Shown here: piece after piece, positions 13,596 through 30,940 of the stretch
Position numbering within the stretch: position 1 is the stretch's first letter
How the letters are laid out: each line of letters begins with the position of its first letter
Source: Opitutaceae bacterium
GTDB taxonomy: Bacteria; Verrucomicrobiota; Verrucomicrobiia; Opitutales; Opitutaceae
Length of the DNA: 64,000 nt
Direction: 5' to 3'
Assembly (NCBI GenBank): GCA_027482185.1
Contig: JAIXWF010000013.1
Location: 310,001-374,000, forward strand
The notes under the pieces: model-generated
What the model saw: the letters and a program-made list of their open reading frames with translations, nothing else
The model's database searches: none
What the model was told of the DNA's origin: nothing
Position numbers and translations under genes: made by a program

Positions 13596-14510
13596 ATGAA
13601 CATCATCGAAACGGAAAACCTGACCCGGCGTTTCGGCCGGAACGACGCGGTGAACGGCCTGAACCTGGCGGTGCCGGAGGGCAGCACGGTCGCGCTGCTC
13701 GGAGCCAACGGAGCGGGCAAGACGACGACGCTGAAGCTCCTGATGAACCTCTTGCAGCCGACGGCCGGCTCGGCGCGCGTGCTGGGCGCCGACTCGCGGC
13801 GGCTCGGCGAGAAGGAATTCGCGCAGATCGGCTACGTCTCGGAAAACCAGGAGTTGCCGCTGTGGATGACGGTGCGGCAGTTGCTCGATTACTGCCGGAA
13901 TTTTTATCCGACCTGGGACCGCGACCTCGAGGCGACGCTGCTTAAGCAGTTCGCGTTGCCCACGGACCGGCCGCTGAAGCAATTGTCCCGCGGCATGACG
14001 ATGAAGGCGGCGTTGCTGTCGTCGCTGGCCTATCGGCCGAAGCTGCTGGTGCTGGACGAGCCCTTCAGCGGGCTCGATCCGCTGATGCGGGACGAGTTCA
14101 TCTCGGGCGTGCTAGAAGTGTCGGCCACGGGGCAATGGACGGTGGTGGTGTCGTCGCACGACATCGGCGAGGTGGAACGCCTGGCGGACCGGGTGGCGAT
14201 GCTGGACGCGGGGCGACTGCGGCTGGACGAGACGACGGAGGCGTTGCTGGGCCGTTTCCGGCGGATCGAGGCGACGCTGGACGAGGCGCCGGCGGCGCTG
14301 CCGGCAGGCCTGCCGACGGCGTGGCGGGAGGTCGAGCACGCGGGGCGGGTGATCCGGTTTGTGGATACGGCGTATGCGCGCGAGGCGACGGAGGCGGCGT
14401 GCCGGCGGCTCTTTCCGGACGCGGCGGTGGTCGCGCAGCCGATGGCGTTGCGGGACATTTTCATCGTGCTGGCGCGGCAGGCGCGGGGAGCGGCGGAGGC
14501 GGCGGCGTGA
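13596..14510 (+). CDS. ABC transporter ATP-binding protein (YtrB-like)
   Basis: 304 residues. Walker A GANGAGKTT at 36-44, Walker B LLVLDEPFSGLD near 149-160, and the switch His in VVSSHDIGE. The signature is altered to LSRGMTMK, which is common in the YtrB/CcmA-like branch. The last about 90 residues form a C-terminal extension. An AGGAG site lies about 11-15 bases before the start. It powers the two permeases encoded next, and its stop overlaps the first permease start. Confidence 0.9.
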   Translation: MNIIETENLTRRFGRNDAVNGLNLAVPEGSTVALLGANGAGKTTTLKLLMNLLQPTAGSARVLGADSRRLGEKEFAQIGYVSENQELPLWMTVRQLLDYCRNFYPTWDRDLEATLLKQFALPTDRPLKQLSRGMTMKAALLSSLAYRPKLLVLDEPFSGLDPLMRDEFISGVLEVSATGQWTVVVSSHDIGEVERLADRVAMLDAGRLRLDETTEALLGRFRRIEATLDEAPAALPAGLPTAWREVEHAGRVIRFVDTAYAREATEAACRRLFPDAAVVAQPMALRDIFIVLARQARGAAEAAA

Positions 14511-16063: not shown

Positions 16064-17655
16064 ACCTGATTTTCGCCGTGGTACGGAAGGATGCCCGCGC
16101 CTTGGCCGGCCGCATGGCTTGGTGGCTGGGCCTGATGGTCCTGAAGCTGGCGGTCGGGGCGTGGCTGTTTTTGAGCCCCGACGTGACGCGGGCGATGTTC
16201 GATAAGGCGGGCTACGCGCTGATCGTGCTGGCGCTGACGGAGGGCGCGCTGCTGTTTCTGCTCGCGGCTTTGCTGGTGCGGGAGGATGCGCCGGCCGGGG
16301 AAAATACGTTCTGGCGAACGCGGCCGATTTCCGGGGCGCGATTGCTCGCGGCCAAGATGACGGGGGCGTTCCTCCTGCTCGTGTTGCCGGCGATCGCGAC
16401 GTCGCTGCCGTGGTGGCTGCTGGCGGGGGGGATGGACGCGACGGCGTTACTGCGGGCGGGCGCGCTGATGTTGGGGGTGCAGGCGGCGGTGATTTTGCCG
16501 GCGGTGATGATGGCGGCGGTGACGGACTCGCTCGGCCGGATGTTGGTTTATTCGGTGCTGTTGCTGGGGGTGGGCAGTTTGTTCGCGGGCTACGTGGGCG
16601 TGTTCGTGGCGGCGCCGAGCCAGAGTGCCGAGGAAGGGAATTGGCGGCTATGGGTGTGGGCCGGAGGCGCGGCGGTAACGGCGATGGCGATCGTATTGGC
16701 GCAGTATCTCGGCCGGCGACCGTACCGCGCGGCGCTGACCGCGGTGTTGGGCTTGGGTGCGGCGTTGGGGTTGGCGCGGTGGTGGCCGTACTCCCCGGCG
16801 TCGATGGCGGCGGGCGGGGCCTTGGAGCTGAGGCTGGGGGAGGGAACGATCTCGCCGCAGAACCCGCGGGAGCGGGCAATCGCCGCGGTGACCCTGGCCA
16901 CGGAATTGCGGGGCGCCGAGCCGGGGCAGTTCGCCGTCGGCGATGCGATCAGGACGGAGTGGCGATTGGCCGACGGCGGAACGAGTGCCGGCTTGGGCGG
17001 AGGATTTATGCCCGGGCACGCGCCGGCGCGGCGGGAAGTTGCGCGGGCGCTCGGCTTCGGGGAGCCGGAAAAAGCGGCGGCATCCGATCCGGCGGTGCGG
17101 ACCGAATTGCGGCTGGTTGCATGGGCCGACCGGCGGATGCTGGAGCGGCTGCGGGCGGGGCCGGCCGCGCTCGCCGTGACCGCCGACGTGTCGTTGTTGC
17201 GTCCGGTGCCGGCGGCGTCGGCGTCCTTCGCGCCCGGGACGACGGTGCGCGGCGGCGGGCGATCGACGCGGGTGCTGGGGATCGTGCGACGCGACGGGGA
17301 CCGGCAGCTGCCGCTCGCGCGCCTGCTGCAGACCGAGTTGGCGAGCGTGCCCGACGGCATGATCATCGGGTCCTTGCGCAATCGCCGCGGCGCCGCTTAC
17401 GCGGGGATAGCGCCGCTCTTTCTGGTGCAACGCGAGACGGCGGCGGTGCGGGCGTTGAACGCGGGCTCGACGATCAATCTGCTCGTGGCCGGCGTGCTGC
17501 TGACGTTGGGCGAGGCGACATTGGACGCGGGGAGTTACGACGGGGCGACGCTGGCGCTCATCGACTGGCGGGAGGAGCGGCGCGTGCGGGTCGAAACGAA
17601 GAGCGATCCGGTGCGGCTGATCTGGGCGGAGCCGAAAGGTGCGGCGGCGCGCTAG
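16060..17655 (+). CDS. ABC transporter permease with large extracytoplasmic domain (paralogue 2)
   Basis: 531 residues. The ATG at 16060 overlaps the upstream stop (ATGA). About seven membrane segments fill residues 15-245, with the shared FWRTRPISGARLLAAK motif near 86-101. A soluble domain follows to residue 531. It probably forms a heterodimer with paralogue 1 under the GntR-regulated ATPase. Its stop codon interlocks with the stop of the convergent creatininase gene. Confidence 0.75.
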   Translation: MNLIFAVVRKDARALAGRMAWWLGLMVLKLAVGAWLFLSPDVTRAMFDKAGYALIVLALTEGALLFLLAALLVREDAPAGENTFWRTRPISGARLLAAKMTGAFLLLVLPAIATSLPWWLLAGGMDATALLRAGALMLGVQAAVILPAVMMAAVTDSLGRMLVYSVLLLGVGSLFAGYVGVFVAAPSQSAEEGNWRLWVWAGGAAVTAMAIVLAQYLGRRPYRAALTAVLGLGAALGLARWWPYSPASMAAGGALELRLGEGTISPQNPRERAIAAVTLATELRGAEPGQFAVGDAIRTEWRLADGGTSAGLGGGFMPGHAPARREVARALGFGEPEKAAASDPAVRTELRLVAWADRRMLERLRAGPAALAVTADVSLLRPVPAASASFAPGTTVRGGGRSTRVLGIVRRDGDRQLPLARLLQTELASVPDGMIIGSLRNRRGAAYAGIAPLFLVQRETAAVRALNAGSTINLLVAGVLLTLGEATLDAGSYDGATLALIDWREERRVRVETKSDPVRLIWAEPKGAAAR

Positions 17656-18443
17656 CCCTGGCGGGCGGCGCGGCAAACCTCGACGATCGCGGCGGCGGTG
17701 GCGGCGGATTGGACTTCGAGCCAGCGTTGGCCGAGTTCGGGCGTGGCGACGGCGGCGTCGCCCATGATGCCGGTTTTCGAAAGATCGGCGGAGACCCAGG
17801 CCATCGTGGCGGGAGCGCGTTCGGGGCGGAGGTTGCCCATCGTCTCGACGCGGCCGCAGTAGTCGGCGACGGCCTTGGACATGTCGACGTACTGCGGCAG
17901 GGCCGCGAGCAGGAGGGCGGTCTCGGCGGTGTTCGCGTGGTAGCCGAACGTCGCTTCCTGCGGCGGCAGCGGCATGTCGACCTTGGGCGCGAGGCTGCCG
18001 CAGCGCAGGCCGAGGGTGGCGGAGATTTCGCGCAGCGTGTAGACGATCACGGCGATGTTGCCGCCGTGGGTGTTGAGGATGGCGAGATTCTTGAAACCCC
18101 AGGCGTGGATTTGGCGGGCGACGGCCCAGAGCTGGGCGCGGAGCGTGTCTTTGGAAACGAAGAGCGTGCCGGGGAAGCCGGTGTGCTCGTTGCTCTTGCC
18201 AATCGTGATCGGGGGCGCGACGTAGACCGAGGCTTCGGGCGGCAGCAGCGGCAACGCGCGCTCGAGCCAGACTTGGGCGAGGAAGGAATCGACGGCGACG
18301 GGCAGGTGCGGGCCGTGCTGCTCGATGGCGCCGGTGGCGAGGATGACGGGGGCGACGGCTTTGTCGGGCAACGAGGCGATCTCGCGCGCCGTCATGCCCG
18401 GCAGGTAGCGGTTGCGGTAGGACGGAAAGGGCGGGTGGTCCAT
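17652..18443 (-). CDS. Creatininase-family metal-dependent amidohydrolase
   Basis: 263 residues, normal for the family, which opens cyclic amides (creatinine) or removes formyl groups (FAPy deformylase) using two metals. The ligand set is complete: Glu41 and His43 in EQHGPHLP, Asp52, His126 in NTHGGN (usually NGHGGN), and Glu175 in HANTAET with His170. The start is CAT 18441-18443 (MDHPPFPSYRN), 5 bases after the divergent homologue's stop, so the two are tightly coupled. It is the last gene of the leftward arm of the metabolic island. The true substrate is unknown. Confidence 0.9.
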   Translation of the reverse strand: MDHPPFPSYRNRYLPGMTAREIASLPDKAVAPVILATGAIEQHGPHLPVAVDSFLAQVWLERALPLLPPEASVYVAPPITIGKSNEHTGFPGTLFVSKDTLRAQLWAVARQIHAWGFKNLAILNTHGGNIAVIVYTLREISATLGLRCGSLAPKVDMPLPPQEATFGYHANTAETALLLAALPQYVDMSKAVADYCGRVETMGNLRPERAPATMAWVSADLSKTGIMGDAAVATPELGQRWLEVQSAATAAAIVEVCRAARQG

Positions 18444-18448
18444 GGCGG

Positions 18449-19222
18449 TCAGGGTTGCGCGGGCAAAATTTTGCCGCCGTGCGGGAGCGGCGGATACGCG
18501 TGGATCTCGCCGAGGAGACCGACGAGGCGGACGGCGGCATCGTCGAGGAGGGCGGGGGCCGCCGCGCGGGCGGCAGCGAGCGGAAGGGCGGGTTCGGCGA
18601 GCGGGTGGACGCGTTCGTCGCCCCACGGGCGCGGGAACGGCGGCTCGGAAGCGCCGCGCGGCGGCGGTTCGGCGTCGCAGCCGGTGAGCGCGGTGACGAG
18701 GGTCTGGAAAGTGCGGCGGGATTGGCTGCGGACCGGATGCAGGTCGAGGCCGAGGCCGCTGAGGCTGATGCGGAAAATCTGCAAGCCGAGGGCGATGCGG
18801 TTGTCGCGGGCGACGGCGGCGATAAACTCTTCGTTCCACGGGCTGGCGTTGTAGAGCAGCACGCGTTTGAAGCCGGATACGGCGATGGAACCGAGGACAT
18901 CGGCGAGGAAGCCATGGGCGACGGGCGGCTCGACGGCGAAGGCGCAGCCCGGATCGGAACCGAGGACGAAACGCAGCGGCGGGATCACGAGGATCGGCTG
19001 GCCGGCAGGGCGGCGTCGCGAAGCGGCGCGGAGGACGTGCATGAGCACGGTTTCCTCGGCGTCGAGGGCGTGGCCGAGGCCCCAGTCGGCGGTGCCGCAG
19101 AGCGGGACGACGACGAGGGTATGCGCGGGATTGGGCCAGCGGGAAAATTCGGGCCAGCGGTGCCAGGCCCAGAAGGTGGCGTCGTCGGCGACGCAGAGCG
19201 GCACGGGAGTCGGGGCGCTCAT
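18449..19222 (-). CDS. Degenerate creatininase homologue lacking metal ligands
   Basis: 257 residues with creatininase topology but no catalytic residues. Where the active copy has GAIEQHGPHLP..D, this one reads GTADWGLGHALD; where it has NTHGGN this has NASPWNEEF; where it has HANTAET this has VRSQSRRTF. The frame is intact and its start overlaps the ridA stop (ATGA), so it is a maintained gene and not a wreck. It probably acts as a structural partner or regulator of the active enzyme encoded 5 bases downstream. The assignment rests on alignment by eye. Confidence 0.65.
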   Translation of the reverse strand: MSAPTPVPLCVADDATFWAWHRWPEFSRWPNPAHTLVVVPLCGTADWGLGHALDAEETVLMHVLRAASRRRPAGQPILVIPPLRFVLGSDPGCAFAVEPPVAHGFLADVLGSIAVSGFKRVLLYNASPWNEEFIAAVARDNRIALGLQIFRISLSGLGLDLHPVRSQSRRTFQTLVTALTGCDAEPPPRGASEPPFPRPWGDERVHPLAEPALPLAAARAAAPALLDDAAVRLVGLLGEIHAYPPLPHGGKILPAQP

Positions 19223-19614
19223 CGGGCGGCGGTAATTTCGACTTCGACGCAGCAGCCGGGGCGGGCGAGGCCCTTGACCTCGAGGAGCGTGCTGGCGGCA
19301 AGGGCGCCGCCGAGGTAGCGGTCGCGCACGGCGGTGAACTTGGGGAAGTCGGCCATGTTGGTGAGATAGGTCTGGGTGCGGACGACGTCGTCGAAACCGA
19401 GATCCGCCGCGGCCAGGATCTGGCCGATGAGTTTGAAAACGTAGTCGGTCTGGGCGGAGGCGTCGTCGGGCGCGACGACCTGGCCGGAGGGATCGACGGC
19501 GAGTTGGCCGGTGGCGTAGAGCGTGCGGCCGGTGCCGAAATCGAGGAGAATGCCGGGGCTGTAGGCGCCGCGCGGGGCGGCGAAGCCGGGCGGGTAGATG
19601 ATCGTCTTCTTCAT
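19219..19614 (-). CDS. RidA-family enamine/imine deaminase-like protein
   Basis: 131 residues. Family words are LYATGQLAVDPSGQVV, DYVFKLIGQILAAADLGFDDVVRTQTYLTNM, FPKFTAVRDRYLG and the C-terminal RPGCCVEVEITAA, with the usually conserved Arg replaced by the RPGCCVE context (commonly RP..l.VEVe). RidA proteins hydrolyse reactive enamines or, in clusters such as Rut, assist breakdown of pyrimidine-ring products. The start is CAT 19612-19614, overlapping the stop of the DUF2165 gene. Confidence 0.88.
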   Translation of the reverse strand: MKKTIIYPPGFAAPRGAYSPGILLDFGTGRTLYATGQLAVDPSGQVVAPDDASAQTDYVFKLIGQILAAADLGFDDVVRTQTYLTNMADFPKFTAVRDRYLGGALAASTLLEVKGLARPGCCVEVEITAAR

Positions 19615-20108
19615 GGGGCGAGTTCGTCGTCGGGCTGGTTGAGGTAGAGGAGCCCGAGACCGAAGATGGCGAACATGCGGAACGCGGCGGTCTGGCCGTT
19701 CCAGGTCGGGGATTGCCACATCAAAAACCATTCGCCGCCGACGGTGATGAAGGCGACGAACCACTGCAGGAGGCTCAGCACGAGACCGGCGCTGGCGAGG
19801 ACCTTGGCGCGCTGCCAAGCGGCGGCGGAGCCGCCGCGCGCGGCCCAGAGTTGCTTCACGCCGAGGGCGATGAGGGCGCCGGCGGCGAATTCCCAGAGGA
19901 TGATCGAGGCGTAGAACGCATGGTGCACGGCGGGACTGTCGATCGCGCGCCACATGAGTTTGTTGCCGGGGAACGTCGTGCTCATGTTGAGGACGTTCTT
20001 CACGAATTGGAAATTGGAGTCGTAGTCGGTGACGTTGTTGAACGCCACGAGCAGGAGGAAAAACGACGAGGCGGCGGTGAGGGCGATTTTCGCGAGGCGG
20101 ATGATCAT
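19611..20108 (-). CDS. DUF2165 small integral membrane protein
   Basis: 165 residues with four membrane segments (about 8-25, 65-85, 100-125, 145-160). The words FNNVTDYDSNFQFVKNVLNMSTTFPGN and EWFLMWQSPTWNGQ are typical of DUF2165. Its function is unknown; its overlap with ridA implies a role linked to the island, perhaps in transport. About 200 bases separate it from the amidohydrolase upstream. Confidence 0.8.
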   Translation of the reverse strand: MIIRLAKIALTAASSFFLLLVAFNNVTDYDSNFQFVKNVLNMSTTFPGNKLMWRAIDSPAVHHAFYASIILWEFAAGALIALGVKQLWAARGGSAAAWQRAKVLASAGLVLSLLQWFVAFITVGGEWFLMWQSPTWNGQTAAFRMFAIFGLGLLYLNQPDDELAP

Positions 20109-20169
20109 CGGGAGGGGAGGCGGGGCGGGCGCGGAGGGGAGGATGGGGCGTGGACGAAGGCTGAGGAGG

Positions 20170-20280
20170 GGGACACAGAGGTCACGGAGTGAACACGGAG
20201 TTCACGGAACGGAAATGGGCGGGGAGGAAATTGCCGGAACGGGATTGCCGGAACGGAATTGCGTTCCGGCAAGGGAGGCG
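20170..20280. repeat. CACGGAG-type and CCGGAACG-type short direct repeats
   Basis: The gap between the amidohydrolase and the DUF2165 gene holds ACGGAG words at short spacing (ACACAGAG, TCACGGAG, ACACGGAG, TTCACGGA) followed by three GCCGGAACG/GTTCCGGC words. The same CACGGAG style recurs at 47491-47531 and 48617-48640. Confidence 0.55.
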
Positions 20281-20307
20281 GAGGCGTTCTTCAAAGCGGA
20301 GTTGGGC

Positions 20308-21606
20308 TCAGCGGTCCTGGAGTTCGGCGTAGTCGGGGAGGGGAGCGGGGGCGAAGCCGTCGGCGTTGACGATTCGGCGCGGGCTGCCGGGGCGGCTGAG
20401 GAGTTCGCTGAAGCGCTGCACGCCGAAGACGACGAGGTGGGCGGGCGAACCGGGGGCGACGCGGCCGTAGGTCGGCAGGCCGACGAGATCGGCGGCGGTG
20501 CGGGTGACGGCGCCGACGGCGGCGTCGAGGCGCACATCGAGATGGGCGAGGCGGACGCTTTGGACGAGGACTTCGGCGGCGTCGTAGTCGCCGAAGGCGT
20601 AGAAGGCATCGCGGACATTGTCGCTGGCGCAGGCGACGGGCACGCCGGCATCGAGGAGATCGTGGACCAAAGTGAGGCCGCGCCAGAGGGGCGTCCGGGG
20701 AAAGACGGTGCCGGCGCTGCGGCGGTCCTGCAGGTAGACGTTGCAGAGCGGGAGGGAAACGATGCCGAGGCCGGCGGCCTTCACGAGATCGATGGTGGAG
20801 CGGGCGCGGTCGCGGGGCTGGACGGCGAGGCTGCAGCAGTGGCCGCAGACCGCGGGCAACGTGAACCCGTTGCGCAAGATGCCTTCGGCGACGAGGCGGA
20901 GGCACTCGGCCTGGGGGTTGTCGTTTTCGTCGACGTGCAGGTCGATGCCGAGGCCGCGTTCCTGGGCGAGTCGGAGCAAGCCGTCGATCTGCGCGGGCAG
21001 GTCGGGATTCATCTGCAGGAAACCGCCGAGGGCAGAGGCGCCGTAGCGGACGGCGAGGTCGGCGATTTTGCGGCCGGTGTCGGAAACGAAATCGGCGCCG
21101 CCGCACAGCGGAATGGTCTGGAGTTCGATGCGGCCGCGCCACTCGGCGCGGAGCCGGGCCATGGTGGCGTGGCTGACCTCGGACCAAGGCAGGCCGGTGT
21201 CGAGATGGGTGCGGATGACGCGGGTGCCGTGGGCGTAGGCGGTGCGGAGGGCGAAGCCGGCGCGGCGGAGCAGGTCGGCCTCGGTCCAGTTGTCCTTGTC
21301 GTTGGCGAGGCTCGTGATCGCTTCCCAGAACGTGCCCGTGCGGTTGGGCGCGCGGTGCCAGGTGTGCGTTTTGTCGAGGTGGACGTGGGCGTCGACGAAG
21401 CCGGGGAAAACGAGGGCGCCGGCGGCGTCGATTTCCGCGGTCGCGGCGGGCGCGGCGGCGGAGGAAGACGGAGTAACGGAGACGATCTCGTTTCCGGCGA
21501 GGCCGACATCGCAGAGCACGGCCGGCTCGAGCGGATCGACGGCGCCGCGCGGCAAATCGGGCGGGAGCAAGGCGGCGGGGACGCGGGCGCGGCGCAGGAG
21601 CAGCAT
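20308..21606 (-). CDS. Cytosine/creatinine deaminase-like amidohydrolase
   Basis: 432 residues, close to CodA. Metal site and catalysis are visible: HVH at 74-76, HVDEND with His224 and Glu227 (CodA HCDEIDD), GHCCSL with His256, LPLCNVYLQDR, and ASDNVRD with Asp329. CodA-type enzymes deaminate cytosine, and the same fold acts as creatinine deaminase. The substrate here is not known. It is the first gene of the leftward arm, divergent from the FAD oxidase across a 107-base promoter region. Confidence 0.85.
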   Translation of the reverse strand: MLLLRRARVPAALLPPDLPRGAVDPLEPAVLCDVGLAGNEIVSVTPSSSAAAPAATAEIDAAGALVFPGFVDAHVHLDKTHTWHRAPNRTGTFWEAITSLANDKDNWTEADLLRRAGFALRTAYAHGTRVIRTHLDTGLPWSEVSHATMARLRAEWRGRIELQTIPLCGGADFVSDTGRKIADLAVRYGASALGGFLQMNPDLPAQIDGLLRLAQERGLGIDLHVDENDNPQAECLRLVAEGILRNGFTLPAVCGHCCSLAVQPRDRARSTIDLVKAAGLGIVSLPLCNVYLQDRRSAGTVFPRTPLWRGLTLVHDLLDAGVPVACASDNVRDAFYAFGDYDAAEVLVQSVRLAHLDVRLDAAVGAVTRTAADLVGLPTYGRVAPGSPAHLVVFGVQRFSELLSRPGSPRRIVNADGFAPAPLPDYAELQDR

Positions 21607-21656
21607 CGCGGAATGAAAGCACCGGCGATGCCATGCGCGAGGTCGGTCCAGACTTT

Positions 21657-21670
21657 TGGCAAAGGTGCCA
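21657..21670. promoter_or_regulatory. Small palindrome in the divergent promoter region
   Basis: TGGCA, four bases, then TGCCA: a perfect inverted repeat between the divergent amidohydrolase (start 21606) and FAD oxidase (start 21714). It could be an operator controlling both arms. No convincing -10/-35 pair could be fixed. Confidence 0.4.
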
Positions 21671-21713
21671 GTCCGGTGGCAGCGAACCTGCTATTTCGGG
21701 TCCGGAACCCTGC

Positions 21714-23162
21714 ATGCCCAATCTTCCCGAAGCCCTTCGCCTTGAACTCCGCACCCTGCTCGGGGCCGAGCACGTGATCGAGAACGGCGAGTCCCTCGAA
21801 ACGCTTTCCAAGGACTTCTACTGGTATTCGCCGGTGCTGAAGCGGAAGTTGGACGACAAGGTCGCCGACCTCGTGGTACGGCCGGGTTCGCTCGACGAAT
21901 TGAAAGGGGCGATCGCCGCGTGCTTCCGGGCGGGCGTGCCCGTGGTGCCGCGCGGCGGCGGCACGGGCAACTACGGCCAATGCGTGCCTTTGTTCGGCGG
22001 CGTCGTGATCGATCTCGCGCGGTTGGACAAAATCCATTCCGTGGCCGGCGGCGTCGTGCGGGCGGAACCCGGCGCGCGGCTCGGTACGATCGAACCGACG
22101 GCGCGGGCCGCGGGTTGGGAGCTGCGTTGCCTGCCTTCGACCTGGGTCAAGAGTTCCCTCGGCGGCTTTTTCTGCGGCGGTTCCGGCGGCATCGGCTCGA
22201 TCACGTGGGGCGGCATCAACGCCGCCGACAACGTGAAGTCCGTCACGGTGATGACCTGCGAGGCGGAGCCGCGGCTGCTGAAGCTCGAGGAGCGCGACGC
22301 GATCAAGGCGCTGCACACCTACGGCACGACGGGATTTCTGGTGGAGATCGAGATGCGGCTCGCGCCGAAGATCGACTACGAGCAGCTCATCTTCAGTTCG
22401 CCGAACTGGGACACGTTGCTGACGTGGACGGACGGCGCGGCGCGGAACGGGACCTGGCGGAAACGGCTGGTGACGCAGTTCCAATGGCCGATCCCGTCGT
22501 ACTTCAAACCGCTCGCGAAGTATTTCCGCAACGGCGAGCACACGAGTTTCCTGCTGGTGGACCGCGCGCAGGCGGCGGAGGTCGTGGCCGCGGCGGAGGC
22601 CGCCGGCTTGACCACGGTGTTCCGGCAGCCGCTGGCGGATCCGCCGAAACCGCCGTTCATCACGGATTACACGTGGAACCACACGACGCTGTGGGCGATG
22701 AAGTCGGACCCGACGATCACTTACTTGCAGGTCGGCTACGGCGAAAATTTCCGCGCGCAATTTGCCGAACTCGAACGGCGTTTCCCGGGCGAGATCCTGC
22801 AGCACCTCGAGTGGGTCGCCGGCAATTCCAAGATGATGCGCAATGCATCCGACGGCGCGACGCCCTCGCCGGCTTCGATCGTCATCGGCGCGATCCCGCT
22901 GGTCTTCTTCAAGAACGAGGCCCGACTGGCCGAGATCATCGCCGCGTGCGGCGAGATCGGCGTGGGCGTGGCCAACCCGCACACCTTCGTGCTGGAGGAG
23001 GGCGGCCGCCATCCGAACATCGCGGAGAAACGCGCCCTGAAGGACGCGGTCGATCCGAAGGGCCTGCTCAATCCGGGGAAGATGAAATCATATCCCCGCA
23101 ATCCATTCGATCCCGGAGCGGCCGCCGTGGCCGCGGCCGCGATCGCCGCCGAGGCGACCTGA
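21714..23162 (+). CDS. FAD-binding oxidoreductase (GlcD/vanillyl-alcohol oxidase type)
   Basis: 482 residues. The FAD_binding_4 domain begins near residue 50; VPRGGGTGNYGQ (78-89) is the FAD pyrophosphate loop, and GGSGGIGSITWGG follows near 155. The C-terminus has DPKGLLNPGKMKSY, the usual end motif of the superfamily. The start is ATG 21714 (MPNLPEALRLEL); the earlier in-frame ATG at 21633 would run into the divergent promoter. It probably oxidises the imported compound or a breakdown product. It is the first gene of the rightward arm, 16 bases before the ABC ATPase. Confidence 0.82.
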   Translation: MPNLPEALRLELRTLLGAEHVIENGESLETLSKDFYWYSPVLKRKLDDKVADLVVRPGSLDELKGAIAACFRAGVPVVPRGGGTGNYGQCVPLFGGVVIDLARLDKIHSVAGGVVRAEPGARLGTIEPTARAAGWELRCLPSTWVKSSLGGFFCGGSGGIGSITWGGINAADNVKSVTVMTCEAEPRLLKLEERDAIKALHTYGTTGFLVEIEMRLAPKIDYEQLIFSSPNWDTLLTWTDGAARNGTWRKRLVTQFQWPIPSYFKPLAKYFRNGEHTSFLLVDRAQAAEVVAAAEAAGLTTVFRQPLADPPKPPFITDYTWNHTTLWAMKSDPTITYLQVGYGENFRAQFAELERRFPGEILQHLEWVAGNSKMMRNASDGATPSPASIVIGAIPLVFFKNEARLAEIIAACGEIGVGVANPHTFVLEEGGRHPNIAEKRALKDAVDPKGLLNPGKMKSYPRNPFDPGAAAVAAAAIAAEAT

Positions 23163-23178
23163 CCCGCGCGCGACCCGC

Positions 23179-23946
23179 ATGAGCGCCCCCTCCCTCGTTC
23201 GGATCGAGCATGTGTCCAAGCGCTTCGGCAGCGGCCCCCTCGTCCTCGACAACATCGGCCTGACGGTCGAGCGCGGCGAGTTCGTCAGCCTGATCGGGCC
23301 CAGCGGCTGCGGCAAATCGACGCTGCTGCGCCTCATCGCGGGGCTCACGGAACCGACGTCGGGCCAATTGGTGATCGACGGCATGACACCGGAGGACGCG
23401 CGCGAGCTGATGTTCTTCGTGTTCCAGGACGCCAACCTGATGCCGTGGCGCAAAGTGGCGGAAAACGTGGAGCTGCCGCTCTTGCTCCGCGGCGATGCCA
23501 CGGCGCGCCGCACGGAGCGCGTGAAACGGATGCTCGAGGTCGTCGGCCTGGGCGACGCCGCGGGCAAGTTCCCGTGGCAGCTGTCGGGCGGCATGCGCAT
23601 GCGCGTATCGATCGCGCGGGCCCTGAGCGTGGCGCCGGAGATTCTGCTGCTGGACGAACCGTTCGGTGCGCTGGACGAAATGACGCGGGACAAATTGAAC
23701 GAGGACCTGCTCGCGTTGCGGCAGACGGATCCGTTCACCGGTTTCTTCGTGACGCACTCGGTGGCGGAGGCGGTGTTCCTTTCGACGCGCATCGTGGTCT
23801 TGGCCGCGAATCCCGGGCGCGTTTCGACGGTGATCGACGTGCCGTTCCCGTATCCGCGGCCGCCGGAGCTGCGGGAAACGCCGGAATTTCTCCAGTTGCT
23901 CGCCGCTACGGCGCGGGCGCTGCGCGCGGTGCGCGGGGGCCATTGA
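23179..23946 (+). CDS. ABC transporter ATP-binding protein (SsuB/TauB/ThiZ type)
   Basis: 255 residues. Walker A GPSGCGKST at 40-48, Q-loop FVFQDANLMPW, signature LSGGMRMRVSIARAL, Walker B ILLLDEPFGALDE, and switch His in VTHSVAEA. The PFGALDEMTR wording is typical of the nitrate/sulfonate/pyrimidine importer group. It lies between the FAD oxidase and its permease, 7 bases before the latter. Confidence 0.92.
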   Translation: MSAPSLVRIEHVSKRFGSGPLVLDNIGLTVERGEFVSLIGPSGCGKSTLLRLIAGLTEPTSGQLVIDGMTPEDARELMFFVFQDANLMPWRKVAENVELPLLLRGDATARRTERVKRMLEVVGLGDAAGKFPWQLSGGMRMRVSIARALSVAPEILLLDEPFGALDEMTRDKLNEDLLALRQTDPFTGFFVTHSVAEAVFLSTRIVVLAANPGRVSTVIDVPFPYPRPPELRETPEFLQLLAATARALRAVRGGH

Positions 23947-23953
23947 ACCGCCG

Positions 23954-24742
23954 ATGAAATCCACGCGTCTCATGGCTTGGTTGCAGCCGGCGATCACGGG
24001 TCTCGCCCTGATCGGGCTGTGGTATGCGGTGAAAGCGGGTTTCAAGATCCCGACCTTCGTGCTGCCGTCGCCGGGCGAGATCGCGCAGGCGGCCTGGGAC
24101 GAACGCGGCCCGCTGCTGTCCGCCGCGATGGTGACGGTGCGCGGCGCGCTGCTCGGCTTTTTCGCGGCGGTGAGCGTGGGCTTTTTGCTCGCGATGGCGC
24201 TCGGGTTTTCGCCGCGGATCAAGGCGTCGTTCTACCCGTACATTTTGATTCTGCAGATGATGCCCGTGACGATTTTGGCGCCGGTCTTCGTGCTGTGGCT
24301 GGGGCAGGGGCTGCCGAGCATCGTGGCGATCACGTTCATGATCGGGTTCTTCCCGGTGGTCGCGAACACGACGATGGGCTTCGTCTCCGTCGACCGGAAT
24401 CTCCGGGAGCTTTTCTTGATGTGCAAGGCGACGCGCGCGCAGGAAGTCCGCTACCTGCGCATCCCGGGCGCGATGCCGTATTTCCTCACCGGCATGAAAA
24501 TCGCCGGCACCTTGGCGCCGATCGGCGCGATCGTCGGCGATTTCCTCGCGGGCAGCGCGGAAAACGGCGTGGGCGGCATCGGCTTCATGACGATCGCGTA
24601 CTTCTCGCAGCTGAAGACGCCGGCGCTGTTCGCGACCGGGCTCGTGGCCTGCGTGATGGGTTTTCTCTTCGTCGGCGGGGTCAACTGGCTCCACTGGCGC
24701 CTCCTGCATTCGTGGCACGATTCGATGGTCAAAAAGGAATGA
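23954..24742 (+). CDS. ABC transporter permease (SsuC/ThiX type)
   Basis: 262 residues with six membrane segments. LPSPGEIAQA near the start and the EAA-like loop around ATRAQEVRYLRIPGAMPYFLTGMK (about 155-178) mark the BPD_transp_1 family, nitrate/sulfonate/pyrimidine branch. Its stop overlaps a possible ATG for the next gene, so the importer genes are tightly coupled. Confidence 0.9.
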   Translation: MKSTRLMAWLQPAITGLALIGLWYAVKAGFKIPTFVLPSPGEIAQAAWDERGPLLSAAMVTVRGALLGFFAAVSVGFLLAMALGFSPRIKASFYPYILILQMMPVTILAPVFVLWLGQGLPSIVAITFMIGFFPVVANTTMGFVSVDRNLRELFLMCKATRAQEVRYLRIPGAMPYFLTGMKIAGTLAPIGAIVGDFLAGSAENGVGGIGFMTIAYFSQLKTPALFATGLVACVMGFLFVGGVNWLHWRLLHSWHDSMVKKE

Positions 24743-24744
24743 GC

Positions 24745-25782
24745 ATGAACCCCAGCACCCGCGTTTCCCTCCTGTTCCGTTGCCTGGCCGCCGTCGCCGC
24801 GCTCGGCCTCGCCAGTTGCGGCGACAAGCCCGCCGCGACCGCGCCCGCCGCCGCGGGCGAGAAGCCGCTGACGAAGATCGTGCTTCAGACCGACTGGTAC
24901 GCGCAGCCCGAGCACGGCGGTTTCTACCAGGCGGTGGTCAAGGGGTACTACAAGGAGGTCGGCCTCGACGTGCAGATCGTGCAGGGCGGGCCGAACGCGA
25001 TCCCGACCCAGAAGGTGGCGATGGGCGCGACGCAATTTTCCATCGGCCGCACGGACGAGATCGCGATCGCGGTGGGTCGCGGCATTCCGCTCCAGGTCGT
25101 GGCGGCGCTGATGCAGCGGGATCCGCAGGCGATCATGTTCCACGAAGAGGGCGGCATCGGCGGGTTCAAGGACCTCGACGGCCGCAACATCATGGCCGTG
25201 CCGGGCGCCGGCTGGATCATGCTGATGGAGAAAAAATTCGGCATCAAGGTGTCGGTCACGCCCCTGGACTTCGGGCTGAGCCGCTTCATGGCGGACAAAA
25301 AGTTCGTCCAGCAGTGCTTCATCACGAACGAGCCCTACTACGTGCGCCAGCAGGGCGCGAAGCCGAAGACCCTGCTGCTTTCTGACATGGGGTTCTCGCC
25401 GTACCGTGTCTGGTACACGAGCCGCGCCTATGCGGCGAAGAACCCGGAGATCGTGCGCGCGTTCACCGCGGCGTCGATCCGCGGCTGGACGGAGTACATT
25501 TCCGGCGATCGCGCGGAGGCGGACAAGATCATCGGCTCGTTGAACAAGCAGATGGTGCCGGAGTTCATCGCCTACAGCGTCGGGGCGATGCGCGAGTTCA
25601 AGCTCGTGACCGGCGATCCCGCGAAGGGCGAGGCGGTGGGGAAGATCGACCCCGCGCGCCTCGAGGACGAGCTCCGGCAACTGGCCGCCATCGGCGTGCT
25701 GGGCCAGCCCGTGAAGCTCGCGGACATTTTCGATCCCCAATTTCTGCCGGAAGGCCTGCGGCCTGCAAAGGCCGCGCAGTGA
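24745..25782 (+). CDS. NMT1/THI5-like solute-binding lipoprotein
   Basis: 345 residues. A signal with lipobox LASC puts the lipidated cysteine at 25, so it is anchored in a membrane facing the periplasm. The mature part has the NMT1/THI5 (ThiY-like) pattern: TDWYAQPEHGGFYQA, GPNAIPTQKVAMGATQF, FITNEPYYVRQQG. Relatives bind thiamine-type pyrimidines, riboflavin and similar heterocycles. Start choice: AAGGA at 24734-24738 is 6 bases from ATG 24745 and abuts the alternative ATG 24739. A FAD oxidase, ATPase and permease precede it and a TonB receptor follows. Confidence 0.9.
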   Translation: MNPSTRVSLLFRCLAAVAALGLASCGDKPAATAPAAAGEKPLTKIVLQTDWYAQPEHGGFYQAVVKGYYKEVGLDVQIVQGGPNAIPTQKVAMGATQFSIGRTDEIAIAVGRGIPLQVVAALMQRDPQAIMFHEEGGIGGFKDLDGRNIMAVPGAGWIMLMEKKFGIKVSVTPLDFGLSRFMADKKFVQQCFITNEPYYVRQQGAKPKTLLLSDMGFSPYRVWYTSRAYAAKNPEIVRAFTAASIRGWTEYISGDRAEADKIIGSLNKQMVPEFIAYSVGAMREFKLVTGDPAKGEAVGKIDPARLEDELRQLAAIGVLGQPVKLADIFDPQFLPEGLRPAKAAQ

Positions 25783-25823
25783 GCCCTGGACCCCGCAACG
25801 GCTTCCGGCAGGAGGCCAAAACC

Positions 25824-28331
25824 ATGAGTACCATGAACCACACACCCATCCCACGTCTGCTGCTGCTGTCGCTGATCGGCGCCGGCGGCATCGAATCCAG
25901 GGCCCTCGCGCAAGCCGCGCCGGCCGCCAATCCCAACATCACCGTGCTCGAGAAGTTCATCGCTTCCGAGACCCGCGTCGAGAGTTCCGACACGCTGCTG
26001 CCCAACTCGCGGCCGGTCGATTCGCTCTACGGCTTCTCCCGCAGCCTGCTCGACACGCCCCGCGGCGTGTCGGTGCTGACGCCCGAGACGCTGGCGCTGC
26101 GCAACATCAACGACGTGTACGACCTGGCGTCGCTCGTCCCCGGTTCGACCGTCGTGAACTTCTACGGCGTGCCCGGCATCCCGACCACGCGCGGCCTTTT
26201 CACCAGCATCTATTTCAACGGCATGCAGCGGGTGTGGAACCGCAACGGCTACCCGACGTCGTTCGGCTCGCTCGAGTCGATGGACTACGTCCGCGGCCCC
26301 GCGCCCGGCCACTACAGCGCGGCCAGCCCCGGCGGCTTCGTCAACTTCCTGCCGAAGTCCCCGTACTACGACAAATCGCGCGGCTCCGTGCGCGCGAGCT
26401 ACGGTTCGTACAACGAGCTCCAGGTCCAGGCCGACGTCGGCGGCCCCGTGCTGATCGGCAAGACGCCTGCGGCCTTCCGCCTCTCGTTCACCAACCAGCA
26501 GGCCGACTCGTACTACGCCGGCATCAAGAACGACTACTTCTCGGCCTACGGCTCGCTGAAGTCCCGCCTTTCGGACACCGTCTCGATCTTCACCGGCGGC
26601 GAGTACTACCGCCACCGTTCGAAGGAGAATCCGGGTTGGAACCGCGTGACGCAGGACCTGATCGACAACGACAACTACGTCTTCGGTTCGCCGCTCAACG
26701 ACCTCACCGGCGCCAGCCTCACGGTGCGCCTGCCGAGCGGCCGGTCCTTCACGTTCGCGAACACGTCGCCCGGGCTCGTCAACCGCGCCGCCCTCGAGAC
26801 CGCGACGCCCTTCGGCGGCACCCGCGGCAACTTCGACGGCTCGTTCCTCGCCCTCGGCACCGGCTTCGCGGGTTCGGGTTTCCGCCCGGCTGTCGTGGCC
26901 GGCCGGCCCGACGCGCAGTTCTTCTACTCCTACCTCGGCGCCATCGACAATCCGACGGCCCGCACGGTCAAGCTCGACGGCAGCCAGGTCATCACCGACG
27001 CGCAGGACTACACCAACGCCGACACCTTCCTCGCGTTCTTCGACACGATCTTCACGCCGAAGAGCGGGCTCAAGGTGACGAACAAGCTCTTCCTCGACGC
27101 CTACAAGCGCGACAAGGTCTCGTCGTACGGCTACGGCGAATACGGCAAGAACCTTACCCTCGAAAACAAGCTGCTGGTCGAGCAGTCGTTCCCCGCCATG
27201 AAGGGCGTCAACCTCGTGTACGGCGCCTCGGTGCGCTACGAGGACGCGATCGCCAAGACCGAATTCACGGTCGAGCCGTTCAACCGCCGCGACATCTCGA
27301 AGGCCCCGACGAACAACGACCGCATGCTCTCCGGCGGCCAGCGCGACCTCTTGGGCAAAACCTACTGGGATCCGTTCGGCAGCTATTACAGCGACAACCT
27401 CACGGTCGGCGCCTTTTTGATCCCGGAGATCAAGTTCACCGAGGCCTTCTCGGTCATTCTCTCGGGCCGCATCGACAACGCGTCGTGGGACTGGGGCGTG
27501 CCCTACGGCCTCGGCGCCGACTTCAACAGCGGCCCGCGCAAGGGCGGCGGCACCACGTACACCAACTACAGCGTCAGCCCGACCTTGAAGGTGGCGCCCA
27601 ACGTGACGCTCTACGCCACCGGGCAGAAGGGCACGTCGTTCCAGGGCTTCTACGTCTCCGGCGGCATCAGTGCCGGCGACACGAACTACCAGGAAAGCAG
27701 CCTCGGCGAGTTCGGCGTCAAGGCCACCGCCCTCGACAACAAGCTCTTCGCGGGCGTGTCGTTCTTCTACCAGGAGCTGGTGAACTTCGACATCCGCGGC
27801 GGCCAGGCGATGCCGCAGCGCGGCAGCGGCGTGGAGTTCGAACTTACGGCCGATGTCTCGAAGCAGTTCAGCCTCGCGACGAACCTCACGTGGCAGGAGC
27901 ACTACTTCCGCTCCCCCACGATCCCGGGCGGTTTCGTGCCGCTCACGGCGCAGCAGCTCACGCAGTACGCGGGCATCTTCTCGTCCGACTTCGGCGGCCG
28001 GCCCAATCCGGGCGGTCCCCGCTTCGGCATTCCGGAGTGGAACGGCAGCATCTTCGCCAAGTACAACTTCGGCAACGGCTGGGTCCTCAGCGGCGGTCCT
28101 TCCTACACGACCAGCCAGTGGGGCAATCCGGACAAGACGATCAAGCTCCCCGCCTTCACGCTCTGGTCCGCGACGTTGCAGTACGTCACGCCGAAGTGGG
28201 AAGTCACGGCGGCCGGCCAAAATCTGTTCAGCGAACGGTATTTCCACTCCTTCGATTCGTTCGCGGCCAACGCGATCATCCTGAAGGGCGAGCCGGTCAC
28301 CCTGACCCTCTCGCTGAAGTACAAGTTCTGA
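25824..28331 (+). CDS. TonB-dependent receptor (siderophore-receptor-like)
   Basis: 835 residues. The start is ATG 25824 because AGGAGG at 25810-25815 sits 8 bases before it; a signal peptide ending near ALAQA follows. The plug has SLLDTPRGVSVLTPETL, IPTTRGLFTSIYFNGM and DYVRGPAPGHYS, then a barrel rich in alternating aromatic strands, ending LTLSLKYKF with a terminal Phe, as needed for outer-membrane insertion. As last gene of the importer operon (42 bases after the binding protein) it likely brings the same ligand across the outer membrane. Confidence 0.92.
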   Translation: MSTMNHTPIPRLLLLSLIGAGGIESRALAQAAPAANPNITVLEKFIASETRVESSDTLLPNSRPVDSLYGFSRSLLDTPRGVSVLTPETLALRNINDVYDLASLVPGSTVVNFYGVPGIPTTRGLFTSIYFNGMQRVWNRNGYPTSFGSLESMDYVRGPAPGHYSAASPGGFVNFLPKSPYYDKSRGSVRASYGSYNELQVQADVGGPVLIGKTPAAFRLSFTNQQADSYYAGIKNDYFSAYGSLKSRLSDTVSIFTGGEYYRHRSKENPGWNRVTQDLIDNDNYVFGSPLNDLTGASLTVRLPSGRSFTFANTSPGLVNRAALETATPFGGTRGNFDGSFLALGTGFAGSGFRPAVVAGRPDAQFFYSYLGAIDNPTARTVKLDGSQVITDAQDYTNADTFLAFFDTIFTPKSGLKVTNKLFLDAYKRDKVSSYGYGEYGKNLTLENKLLVEQSFPAMKGVNLVYGASVRYEDAIAKTEFTVEPFNRRDISKAPTNNDRMLSGGQRDLLGKTYWDPFGSYYSDNLTVGAFLIPEIKFTEAFSVILSGRIDNASWDWGVPYGLGADFNSGPRKGGGTTYTNYSVSPTLKVAPNVTLYATGQKGTSFQGFYVSGGISAGDTNYQESSLGEFGVKATALDNKLFAGVSFFYQELVNFDIRGGQAMPQRGSGVEFELTADVSKQFSLATNLTWQEHYFRSPTIPGGFVPLTAQQLTQYAGIFSSDFGGRPNPGGPRFGIPEWNGSIFAKYNFGNGWVLSGGPSYTTSQWGNPDKTIKLPAFTLWSATLQYVTPKWEVTAAGQNLFSERYFHSFDSFAANAIILKGEPVTLTLSLKYKF

Positions 28332-28353: not shown

Positions 28354-28390
28354 AAACGCGGTCCGCTCCGGCGGGCCGCGTTTTTTTTTG
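28354..28390 (+). terminator. Rho-independent terminator of the importer operon
   Basis: The stem AACGCGGTCCGC pairs with GCGGGCCGCGTT around a TCCG loop, with one internal mismatch, and is followed by nine T. It begins 23 bases after the TonB receptor stop, closing the rightward arm. Confidence 0.9.
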
Positions 28391-28696: not shown

Positions 28697-29650
28697 TTAA
28701 CCGGCGAGCAGGTCGGTGCGGGCGCGGTCGCGGAATTCGCCCGGGGTCTGGCCGGTGGTGCGGCGGAAGAAGCGGCCGAAGTACGACGGGTCGTGGAAGC
28801 CGAGCCGGTACGCGATCTGCGAGGCGGTCAGCGTCGTGTGCGCAAGCAGCCGTTTGGCTTCGAGGACGATGCGTTCGTGGATGATCTCGCTCGCGGTGCG
28901 GCCGGTCTCGGCCTGCAGGTGCGCGTTGAGGTGCGTGCGCGAAACGCGGAGCAGGTCGGCGTAGTCGCCCACCTCGAGCAGGCGCGGGAAATGTTCTTCC
29001 AAGGCGACGCGGAAGCGGCGCGTCAGCAGGTCGGCCGAGGGCAAGGTCGCGATTCCGGGGCTGCGGCGATCGAGGAACTGCCGGCCGAGCGTGAGCAAAA
29101 TCGTGAGGTGGGCGCGGACGAAGTCGTCGCGGCCGGCGGCGTCGGGGCCGGCGTCCTCGTGCAATTGGGCGAAGGCCTGGTCGATGCGGCGACCTTCCGC
29201 GGCGTCGAGGTGCAAGATGGGATCGGCTTCGCCGTTGTAGAGAAACGGCATCTTGGCGAGCAGGCCGGGCTGGTCGCTGTTCACGGCGAAGAATTCCTCG
29301 GAGAAACTCGCAATCTCGCCCTTGGCCGGGGCGGCGAGTTCCCAGCTGTGGATCTGGCCCGGGGAAGTGAAGAAGAGCGTGCGGGGTTTGACCGGGTAGG
29401 TGCGGAGGTCGCTGCGCACGAGACCCGTGCCCTGGCGCACCCAGATGATCTCGAAGAAATCGTGGCGGTGCGGCACCGGGATCAGGCCGCCGAGGCGGTC
29501 CTGCTGGTCGTCCCCGCAGCGGATCACGTGGAACTGACCGGGTTTGCGGATGCCGCGGGTGTACGCGGACATCGGGTAAAGGGCGATGGTCCCGGGCGCG
29601 CCCTCACCGGGGCGACGGGCGTCCGGGGAACGATCGGCGGAAAACGGCAT
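28697..29650 (-). CDS. AraC-family transcriptional regulator
   Basis: 317 residues: an N-terminal cupin-like sensor part (PHRHDFFEIIWVRQGTGLV, FFTSPGQIHSWE) and a C-terminal double helix-turn-helix (TLTASQIAYRLGFHDPSYFGRFFRRTTGQTP in two helices). An alternative start at ATG 29572 (MSAYTRG) would remove a Pro/Gly-rich leader and is equally possible. It lies after the terminator of the heterocycle island and converges on it, and precedes nothing else on its strand, so its target is unknown; sugar-type sensing is usual for this architecture. Confidence 0.9.
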   Translation of the reverse strand: MPFSADRSPDARRPGEGAPGTIALYPMSAYTRGIRKPGQFHVIRCGDDQQDRLGGLIPVPHRHDFFEIIWVRQGTGLVRSDLRTYPVKPRTLFFTSPGQIHSWELAAPAKGEIASFSEEFFAVNSDQPGLLAKMPFLYNGEADPILHLDAAEGRRIDQAFAQLHEDAGPDAAGRDDFVRAHLTILLTLGRQFLDRRSPGIATLPSADLLTRRFRVALEEHFPRLLEVGDYADLLRVSRTHLNAHLQAETGRTASEIIHERIVLEAKRLLAHTTLTASQIAYRLGFHDPSYFGRFFRRTTGQTPGEFRDRARTDLLAG

Positions 29651-29705: not shown

Positions 29706-30566
29706 TTACTTTTTTGGCGGCAGGCTGAGGAAGGCGATGAGGGCATCGAGCTGTGCATCCGTGTAGTGCGGGTGCGGCTCCATCTTGGCCGTGCTGGCAA
29801 ACCCCTTGGGATCACGGACGTAGCTGCGAAAGTAGGCCGGATTGTGCGTGGCATGGCCCACGAGGACTTCGAACGGTCGGCCGCCCTTGGTGCCGCCGAA
29901 GGTGCCGGTGTCGACGGGGCCGGCGTGACAGCTGGTGCAGGAGTGGATCCAGATTTCGCGGCCCTCCGCGGCGGCGGCGTTGGGTTTCGCCCAGCGTCCG
30001 GTGAAGAGGGCGGCAAAGCGTTCTTGGAACGAAGCAATTTCGATGGTGGCGACGCCCCAGGGTTTCTTGTGGCCGATGTCGAGGAGCGACTCGACGCCGG
30101 GGGAGACGGAATTGTCCACGCTGATGACGTAGGGGCCGGGGTTGAACTTGAGGCCCGGGGGCGGCCATTTCTCGGGGCCCTGGCCGTTGATCGCGAGGAT
30201 GAGGAAGGGCCGGCGTTCGCGGATGAAGGCGTCGACAAAGACCGAGGCGTAGCCGTCGGTGCACGTGGCCAGCACGGCATCGGCGCCGGGGCCGACGGGC
30301 AAGCGGGCCCAGAGATCGGCGAGGAAAACGACCGTGACTTCCTGTTTCCCCGGGACGAATTCGCCGTCGAGGGTGAGTTTGGTGGTCGGCAGCGCCGCGA
30401 GGTCGGTCCAGCGCACGTAACGCGATTCCCCGGCGGGCACGCCGGCTAGTTTCCCGGTGACGGCGAGGTCGGTCGGCCCGGAGCGCGTCGCGTGCAAGGT
30501 CAGGCTCGGCGCGGCTTGGAGCCCGCCGGCGAGCAGGAGCCCAAGCCCGAAGAGGCACCGGCGCAT
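29706..30566 (-). CDS. Secreted cytochrome c with molybdopterin-oxidoreductase-like N-terminal part
   Basis: 286 residues. The start is CAT 30564-30566, giving MRRCLFGLGLLLAGGLQAAP, a clean signal peptide; the frame's earlier ATG adds 20 residues of poor signal quality. Residues 20-150 (RYVRWTDLAALP, NPGPYVISVDNS) resemble the small domains of sulfite-oxidase-like partners. A single haem c site CTSCH is at 210-214, with a likely Met ligand in the AKMEPHPHY segment near 262. It should act in the periplasm in electron transfer. Same strand as the AraC gene, which starts 55 bases after its stop. Confidence 0.75.
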   Translation of the reverse strand: MRRCLFGLGLLLAGGLQAAPSLTLHATRSGPTDLAVTGKLAGVPAGESRYVRWTDLAALPTTKLTLDGEFVPGKQEVTVVFLADLWARLPVGPGADAVLATCTDGYASVFVDAFIRERRPFLILAINGQGPEKWPPPGLKFNPGPYVISVDNSVSPGVESLLDIGHKKPWGVATIEIASFQERFAALFTGRWAKPNAAAAEGREIWIHSCTSCHAGPVDTGTFGGTKGGRPFEVLVGHATHNPAYFRSYVRDPKGFASTAKMEPHPHYTDAQLDALIAFLSLPPKK

Positions 30567-30940
30567 TGAAAAAACGGGATTCCGCGAAACGCAGGGAAGA
30601 GGCATGGCCGGAAGGCACAGAAGCACGCGGGATGCCGGGCGGGAAGAGAAAGGGGCAGTAAGCCGAAAGCATTAAGCTCAAAGCCGAACTCCGAACTCCG
30701 AACTCCAAACTGCATCAACCACTGATGAACACTGATGGACACTGAATCGGAGGGAATCCGGAGCGCTCGGATTCCGCCCTCATGAATGGAGTTTAGTGAC
30801 CATCCGTGGTTCACGGCTTGAGAACTCCGAACACCGAACACCGAACTCCGAACTCCGAACTCCGAACCTTGCTCGTCGCCGCGCCCCGACCCAAAGCCCA
30901 AAACCCAAAGCCCAAAACCTACCTCCCTATATATAGAAGA

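Follow-up and report, generated by a model that had tools for sequence, protein, structure and literature searches.

A conserved catabolic island in an Opitutaceae bacterium, most likely for uptake and breakdown of a pteridine

We analysed a stretch of 64,000 nucleotides (the window) from the 6.4 Mb genome of an Opitutaceae bacterium, contig JAIXWF010000013.1, in which two divergent arms of genes encode a flavin enzyme, several amidohydrolase-type proteins and a complete import route. The data point to a real, conserved catabolic island that is the Verrucomicrobial variant of a wider gene set, the flavin enzyme of which has a solved relative assigned to folate catabolism. On balance, we think that the island takes up and breaks down a compound of the pteridine type, which could be folate, a fragment of it or a free pterin. 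A pteridine is preferred mainly because the only close solved relative of the flavin enzyme, FadOx, is the folate-assigned 6V42.

The flavin enzyme and the island layout

The similarity of the window FadOx to 6V42 is full-length and far above that to other FAD_binding_4 enzymes: among PDB chains the match to 6v42_A has an E value of 3.8e-91 and the next chain one of 3e-13. The top Foldseek match to a predicted model of FadOx is also 6V42, whose PDB title reads 'flavin oxygenase ... involved in folate catabolism'; this model is mediocre (mean predicted local distance difference test, pLDDT, 61.4) and served solely to retrieve the title. Over the aligned stretch, identity to 6V42 is 65.5-66.7% for the FadOx of four Rhizobium gene clusters, 43-46% for the marine, Roseateles and Agrobacterium F2 enzymes, about 40% for those of enterobacteria and 39.7% for the window enzyme. 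There are 65 positions, the WNHTT motif among them, that are invariant across 14 FadOx sequences, 6V42 included.

The genes and signals of the island are as follows.

17652..18443, minus strand: crtA, creatininase-family amidohydrolase with canonical ligands intact (PF02633, 190 bits, scan on a longer frame; ligands; K-x-x-E-H motif)
18449..19222, minus strand: crtB, apparently degenerate creatininase-fold partner (Pfam score below cut-off; profile match to CrtA; predicted model)
19219..19614, minus strand: rid, Rid-family protein without the RidA arginine (PF01042; alignments)
19611..20108, minus strand: DUF2165 small membrane protein (PF09933, 206 bits)
20308..21606, minus strand: codA-like amidohydrolase, candidate pterin deaminase (PRK07583, 467 bits against a cut-off of 403; residue comparison)
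21714..23162, plus strand: fadox, FAD_binding_4 enzyme related to 6V42 (E 3.8e-91 to 6v42_A; Foldseek top match)
23179..23946, plus strand: ATPase of the ABC importer (PF00005)
23954..24742, plus strand: permease of the ABC importer (PF00528)
24739..25782, plus strand: NMT1/THI5-type binding lipoprotein (PF09084; start at 24739 or 24745)
25824..28331, plus strand: TonB-dependent receptor (plug domain; partial matches to TonB-siderophore models, below cut-off)
28354..28383, plus strand: intrinsic-terminator-like stem followed by a T run (terminator scan)

Reading frames and family-model scans placed all the genes named in an earlier note at 17652-28331 and in the families claimed for them, and the divergent arrangement described there is real. 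The left arm runs codA, DUF2165, rid, crtB and crtA on the minus strand; the right arm runs fadox, ATPase, permease, binding lipoprotein and TonB receptor on the plus strand and leads into a strong terminator-like site. There are two candidate ATGs for fadox, at 21633 and 21714, and the second was taken. The earlier note had read gene overlaps as tight coupling, which was slightly overstated. There are 4-base overlaps between crtB and rid (19219-19222), between rid and DUF2165 (19611-19614) and, if the first ATG is used, between the permease and the binding protein (24739-24742), but the creatininase pair is separated by a 5-base gap. The distance from codA to DUF2165 is 199 bases. The strong terminator claimed downstream of the receptor has 13 pairs and a T run; the scan returned 12 terminator-like sites, against 9.5 expected by chance, and this one is the longest. 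The scan for sigma-70-like promoters found none and an Rfam scan gave no match.

Two genes that lie beyond the island coordinates of the earlier note may also belong to the unit.

28697..29650, minus strand: AraC-family regulator, probable member of the unit (family scan; homologues in 5 of 33 crtB loci)
29706..30626, minus strand: cytochrome-c-like protein, possible member of the unit (PF13442; homologues in 6 of 33 crtB loci)

On the other side, at 13596-17655 on the strand opposite to crtA and adjoining it, two long frames and a gene for an ATPase-like protein may encode an ABC exporter; the last frame overlaps the end of crtA by 4 bases.

Conservation in Verrucomicrobia and on proteobacterial plasmids

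Relatives of CrtB were found in assemblies of Opitutaceae, Opitutae and other Verrucomicrobia, and 33 related loci were collected through CrtB similarity. Several of these loci stop at contig ends, so that the counts are lower bounds: fadox is present in 17, rid in 16, DUF2165, the binding protein and a TonB-like receptor in 13 each, and codA in 12. The 12 loci with codA all have fadox and DUF2165, and 11 have rid. In every one of the 33 loci the match that follows crtB is crtA, and the two share a strand. The same divergent layout is seen in a genome of a sister family (L103). Among 150 genomes of the family, fadox was found in 24 and codA in 23 (E 1e-30), with both in 22; the Fisher p value for this co-occurrence is about 5e-23, which is not a true probability because the genomes are related. 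crtB was found (E 0.001) in 60 of these genomes, covering 21 of the 24 with fadox, one of the 21 (G048) being a weak match that we read as a single creatininase. In a wider set of 337 genomes of the phylum, there is a CrtB in 15 (E 1e-10) and a FadOx in 7 (E 1e-40).

Two other arrangements were seen among the relatives. In five loci (L027, L029, L031, L038 and L039) rid-crtB-crtA lies beside a major facilitator superfamily transporter, in four of the five together with a PhzF-family gene, and there is no fadox or codA at the locus; in four genomes with this variant (G148, G131, G114 and G072) fadox and codA are both on another contig. In genome G019 the island is expanded (contig C12, 545-656 kb; L053 and L071-L075), with all eight FadOx matches of that genome, many NMT1-type binding proteins, a xanthine/uracil permease and a ring hydrolase of the AtzD/barbiturase family.

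The gene set is also present outside the phylum. A search of 72,556 plasmid records gave FadOx relatives in 141, every one at less than 60% identity, and CrtB has no match in the PLSDB plasmids. We read 14 neighbourhoods, comprising 12 FadOx records spread over genera and two found via a Pantoea amidohydrolase. The core set of creatininase, ABC importer, CodA-like amidohydrolase, FadOx and Rid recurs on plasmids of alpha-, beta- and gammaproteobacteria. All 14 loci have a creatininase (in L060 as an open frame only), a Rid (in L062 as an open frame only) and a three-part ABC importer, the binding protein of which is window-like or annotated as THI5-like. A CodA-like amidohydrolase is present in 13 of 14, with an interrupted, unannotated frame in L060; in Agrobacterium F2 there is a 2-oxoglutarate-Fe(II) oxygenase where codA would be expected. 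An NAD(P)H oxidoreductase, PDR/VanB reductase or 2Fe-2S ferredoxin gene is found in 11 of the 14. The marine clusters have a TetR regulator with a YcdC/RutR C-terminal domain, and in R. leguminosarum CB782 genes for urea carboxylase and allophanate hydrolase adjoin the cluster. On pADP-1 and on an Agrobacterium leguminum plasmid there is a relative of the amidohydrolase, lacking the rest of the set, some kilobases from atzD.

Thus the neighbours co-occur in relatives, as the earlier note had asked of them: the CodA-like protein, FadOx, DUF2165, Rid and the creatininase pair stay together. This co-occurrence, in relatives and in other phyla, supports a single pathway for an imported nitrogen heterocycle. 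It makes it very improbable that the neighbours are a loose collection serving no single pathway. Such a collection would explain why crtA-crtB and fadox-codA can each be found on their own and why the receptor varies, but the core set stays intact from one phylum to another, and the divergent layout is seen again in the sister family.

The amidohydrolases and the Rid protein

The CodA-like protein passes the PRK07583 model, yet where the two align it shares 27% of its residues with E. coli CodA. It keeps H61, H63, H214, E217, H246 and D313 (E. coli CodA numbering), which we take to be the metal ligands and the catalytic Glu and His. Residues Q156, D314 and W319 of E. coli CodA, which presumably read the cytosine ring, are replaced by G, N and F, so that the protein does not pass as a cytosine deaminase. 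N314 and F319 are common to 13 of 14 aligned CodA-like enzymes of the clusters, the exception being an interrupted Klebsiella frame, and Q156 is absent from all 14. The cluster enzymes of the alignment depart jointly from E. coli CodA. We have set aside plain cytosine as a substrate because these residues are changed, and the pyrimidine-like ring of the earlier note is not supported in the sense of a plain cytosine-type pyrimidine.

Pterin deaminases are CodA-related amidohydrolases in the parts of two papers available to us (PMC9513972, PMC13081902). The enzyme (PDA) of Variovorax sp. F1, a relative of Arad3529 of Agrobacterium radiobacter, is described as deaminating folic and pteroic acid, and was cloned via an 'endoribonuclease' gene that lies downstream of the deaminase gene in V. 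paradoxus (PMC9513972, in part). The window protein has 432 residues and the Variovorax enzyme 399, and the two are likened by description, not by alignment. 'Endoribonuclease' is an older label for Rid proteins and one cluster Rid is annotated in this way; we infer that the V. paradoxus gene encodes the same kind of Rid as in the clusters. The changes that the CodA-like and Rid proteins have in common are a warning that automatic annotation as 'cytosine deaminase', 'creatininase' or 'RidA' may be misleading throughout the group.

CrtA scores 72.3 bits against the curated creatininase model TIGR04448, for which the cut-off is 235, and CrtB does not match it. The best NCBIfam match of CrtA is MftE, at 104.7 bits against a cut-off of 172. 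Creatinine was set aside as a substrate because CrtA is so far under the TIGR04448 cut-off, which speaks against the 'creatinine-like' ring of the earlier note. Alignments to 1q3k and to cluster relatives show that CrtA keeps E, H, D and H at what we take to be the creatininase metal-ligand positions, and a K-x-x-E-H motif is common to CrtA and the proteobacterial cluster creatininases (18 of 18 aligned). Hydrolysis of an amide or formamide by CrtA is plausible because BrbF, a creatininase-family protein, is a proven formamidase acting on a formylaminopyrimidine, according to the part of its description available (PMC9478397). BrbF, which is annotated as a creatininase and is likened to CrtA by description only, serves riboflavin synthesis, whereas CrtA has a degenerate partner and lies in a catabolic-looking cluster.

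The Pfam score of that partner, CrtB, is 25.7 bits, under the cut-off of 31.3, but it aligns with CrtA over most of its length (hhalign 98.2%). In this alignment the four ligand positions are A, W, E and S, so that CrtB does not pass as a metal-binding creatininase. All 26 PDB matches of its predicted model (mean pLDDT 79) at E 0.001 are creatininase-family structures. From alignment and model, CrtB looks like a disabled copy of CrtA, with a creatininase fold and lost metal ligands. It does not look like a decaying gene, because its own residues are well conserved.

CrtB and CrtA are fused into one chain of 504-526 residues in five genomes (L079-L082 and L087). Six loci suspected of a fusion were fetched; the fused frame was called in five and missed by the gene caller in L078. 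None of fadox, codA and the binding-protein gene was found in the fetched stretch of the five fused loci, and L080 has a weak ABC-ATPase match and a weak phosphoribosyltransferase match. The fused protein possibly has a housekeeping role, for example as a BrbF-like formamidase. In a tree of 50 CrtA sequences (midpoint root; some long branches) 41 Verrucomicrobial sequences form one group, which contains the five fused sequences as a group of their own, apart from eight proteobacterial sequences; one Opitutaceae sequence from a single-creatininase locus (L070) is also outside the Verrucomicrobial group.

There is a second operon with crtA-crtB in L030, L048, L049 and L051 and, in another family, in L105 and L106. 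It carries varying subsets of genes for a RibA-like protein (GTP cyclohydrolase II), a protein of 329-356 residues with no Pfam family match (F36), a phosphoribosyltransferase, a xanthine/uracil permease, DUF3891, an amidohydrolase, a formamidase, a second Rid and an FAA hydrolase. In L026 and L103 some of these genes are found combined with the FadOx set. A likeness to the yeast URC uracil pathway was considered but not adopted, F36 matching no Pfam family. The presence of crtA-crtB in the RibA-like operon as well suggests that CrtA-CrtB is a re-usable ring-opening module. More tentatively, and with the odds rather against it, CrtA-CrtB could be a two-chain amidohydrolase, in which an active subunit is obligately paired with a metal-less sister that supplies part of the substrate site. 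Verrucomicrobia would then employ the module for ring opening in two related pathways, namely the FadOx pteridine route and a GTP-cyclohydrolase-II-like one that includes a formamidase, a second Rid and sometimes a phosphoribosyltransferase.

In the island Rid a Ser is aligned with the arginine that we take to be catalytic in RidA, so that the protein does not pass as a RidA-type imine deaminase. This Ser is common to all 14 aligned Rid proteins of the clusters; the second Rid of L026 keeps the arginine.

Candidate pathway, alternative substrates and known systems

A pteridine is a pyrimidine fused to a pyrazine ring. For such a compound, the TonB receptor and the lipoprotein-fed ABC importer would, judging from their families, bring it into the cell. 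The CodA-like amidohydrolase would strip the 2-amino group from the pterin ring to give a lumazine-type dione, and FadOx, by analogy with 6V42, would oxygenate or oxidise the ring. CrtA, stabilised or gated by CrtB, may then hydrolyse the resulting cyclic amide or formamide, and Rid may handle a reactive enamine- or imine-like intermediate or be a specialised Rid that does without the usual arginine.

Several observations weigh against this pathway. The folate assignment of 6V42 is that of its PDB title, and FadOx substrates may have diverged, because the window enzyme is 40% identical to 6V42 and has two further paralogues in its genome outside the island (G000:C16:281664-283064, 63%; G000:C3:1657087-1658427, 43%). 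A reductase or ferredoxin gene was not found in the window island, against 11 of 14 proteobacterial loci. The creatininase pair also occurs independently of FadOx: no fadox lies in the fetched stretch of 16 of the 33 crtB loci, and of 150 genomes 60 have crtB and 24 have fadox. DUF2165 has no place in the proposed scheme. The nearest solved relatives of the binding protein (4nmy; 3ix1, E 2.5e-10; THI5) include binders of thiamine pyrimidines. The earlier note would have counted an unrelated receptor against the island, and this is partly what is seen, since the TonB-like matches in related loci are diverse (22 to 69% identity to the window receptor); the outer-membrane step may therefore differ in ligand form. 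Finally, some related loci have xanthine/uracil-type permeases or a ring hydrolase of the cyanuric acid/barbiturate type, which also fits simple pyrimidines or purines.

Some of these observations would suit a single-ring pyrimidine (a modified cytosine, a uracil derivative or the thiamine pyrimidine) that the CodA-like enzyme deaminates, FadOx oxidises and CrtA opens. We regard this as possible but considerably less likely than a pteridine. The binding protein matches the FAMP-binding ThiY and THI5, but at an E value of about 1e-10 the NMT1/THI5 similarity is generic. Xanthine/uracil permeases occur in L030, L037 and L073, the last of which also has a hydrolase of the AtzD/barbiturase family; the marine clusters have their RutR-type TetR domain, and Agrobacterium F2 has an oxygenase in place of codA. 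The changed cytosine-site residues, in the window and in the other aligned cluster enzymes, and the assignment of the close solved relative of FadOx to folate catabolism argue for a different ring. Less probable still is the degradation of a purine- or nucleobase-like ring that would undergo a RibA-like opening before CrtA-CrtB act on it, on the model of the second operon. That would account for crtA-crtB lying elsewhere beside RibA-like, phosphoribosyltransferase, formamidase and permease genes, and for the merged sets of L026 and L103, but the RibA-like and FadOx sets are mostly separate and the window island has no RibA-like or phosphoribosyltransferase gene.

The island has some of its parts in common with two known systems. 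Like the Rut pathway it has a Rid-family protein and a flavin enzyme, but no RutA or RutB is among the family matches of the island and its Rid scores 56.6 bits against a RutC cut-off of 169.1; the Rut reading was set aside on these grounds. With ThiXYZ/FAMP salvage it shares an NMT1/THI5-type binding protein and importer, but no thiamine salvage enzyme is among the family matches and the island adds a flavin enzyme and amide hydrolases. There is a further likeness to 6V42/6V43 and the Rhizobium clusters, in which a FadOx of the same family is surrounded by genes for a creatininase, a CodA-like protein, a Rid and an ABC importer. In the window, CrtB, DUF2165 and the TonB receptor come on top of these, and the NAD(P)H oxidoreductase of the Rhizobium loci is missing; those clusters are the neighbourhoods of close relatives of 6V42, not of 6V42 itself. 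The earlier note knew of no named system with exactly this set, a claim weakened by the 66% identity of the folate-assigned 6V42 to the FadOx of same-set Rhizobium clusters. Among the papers listed by the literature searches we found none that names 6V42 or 6V43 and none on this gene set; few subscription papers were covered, so the pathway may be published. The passages seen of two papers (PMC12746152, PMC7662398) do not mention folate or pterins.

The environmental degradation of folate is not fully elucidated, according to the part available of one study (PMC9513972), and bacterial folate and pterin breakdown is poorly worked out. The conserved gene set that Verrucomicrobia share with three proteobacterial classes provides a marker for it and an order of enzymes that can be tested. 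CrtA-CrtB, fused in some genomes, would be a clean case of an enzyme recruiting a disabled copy of itself. If the tentative two-pathway module is true, the GTP-cyclohydrolase-II-like route would represent a new type of catabolism of nucleobases or pteridines.

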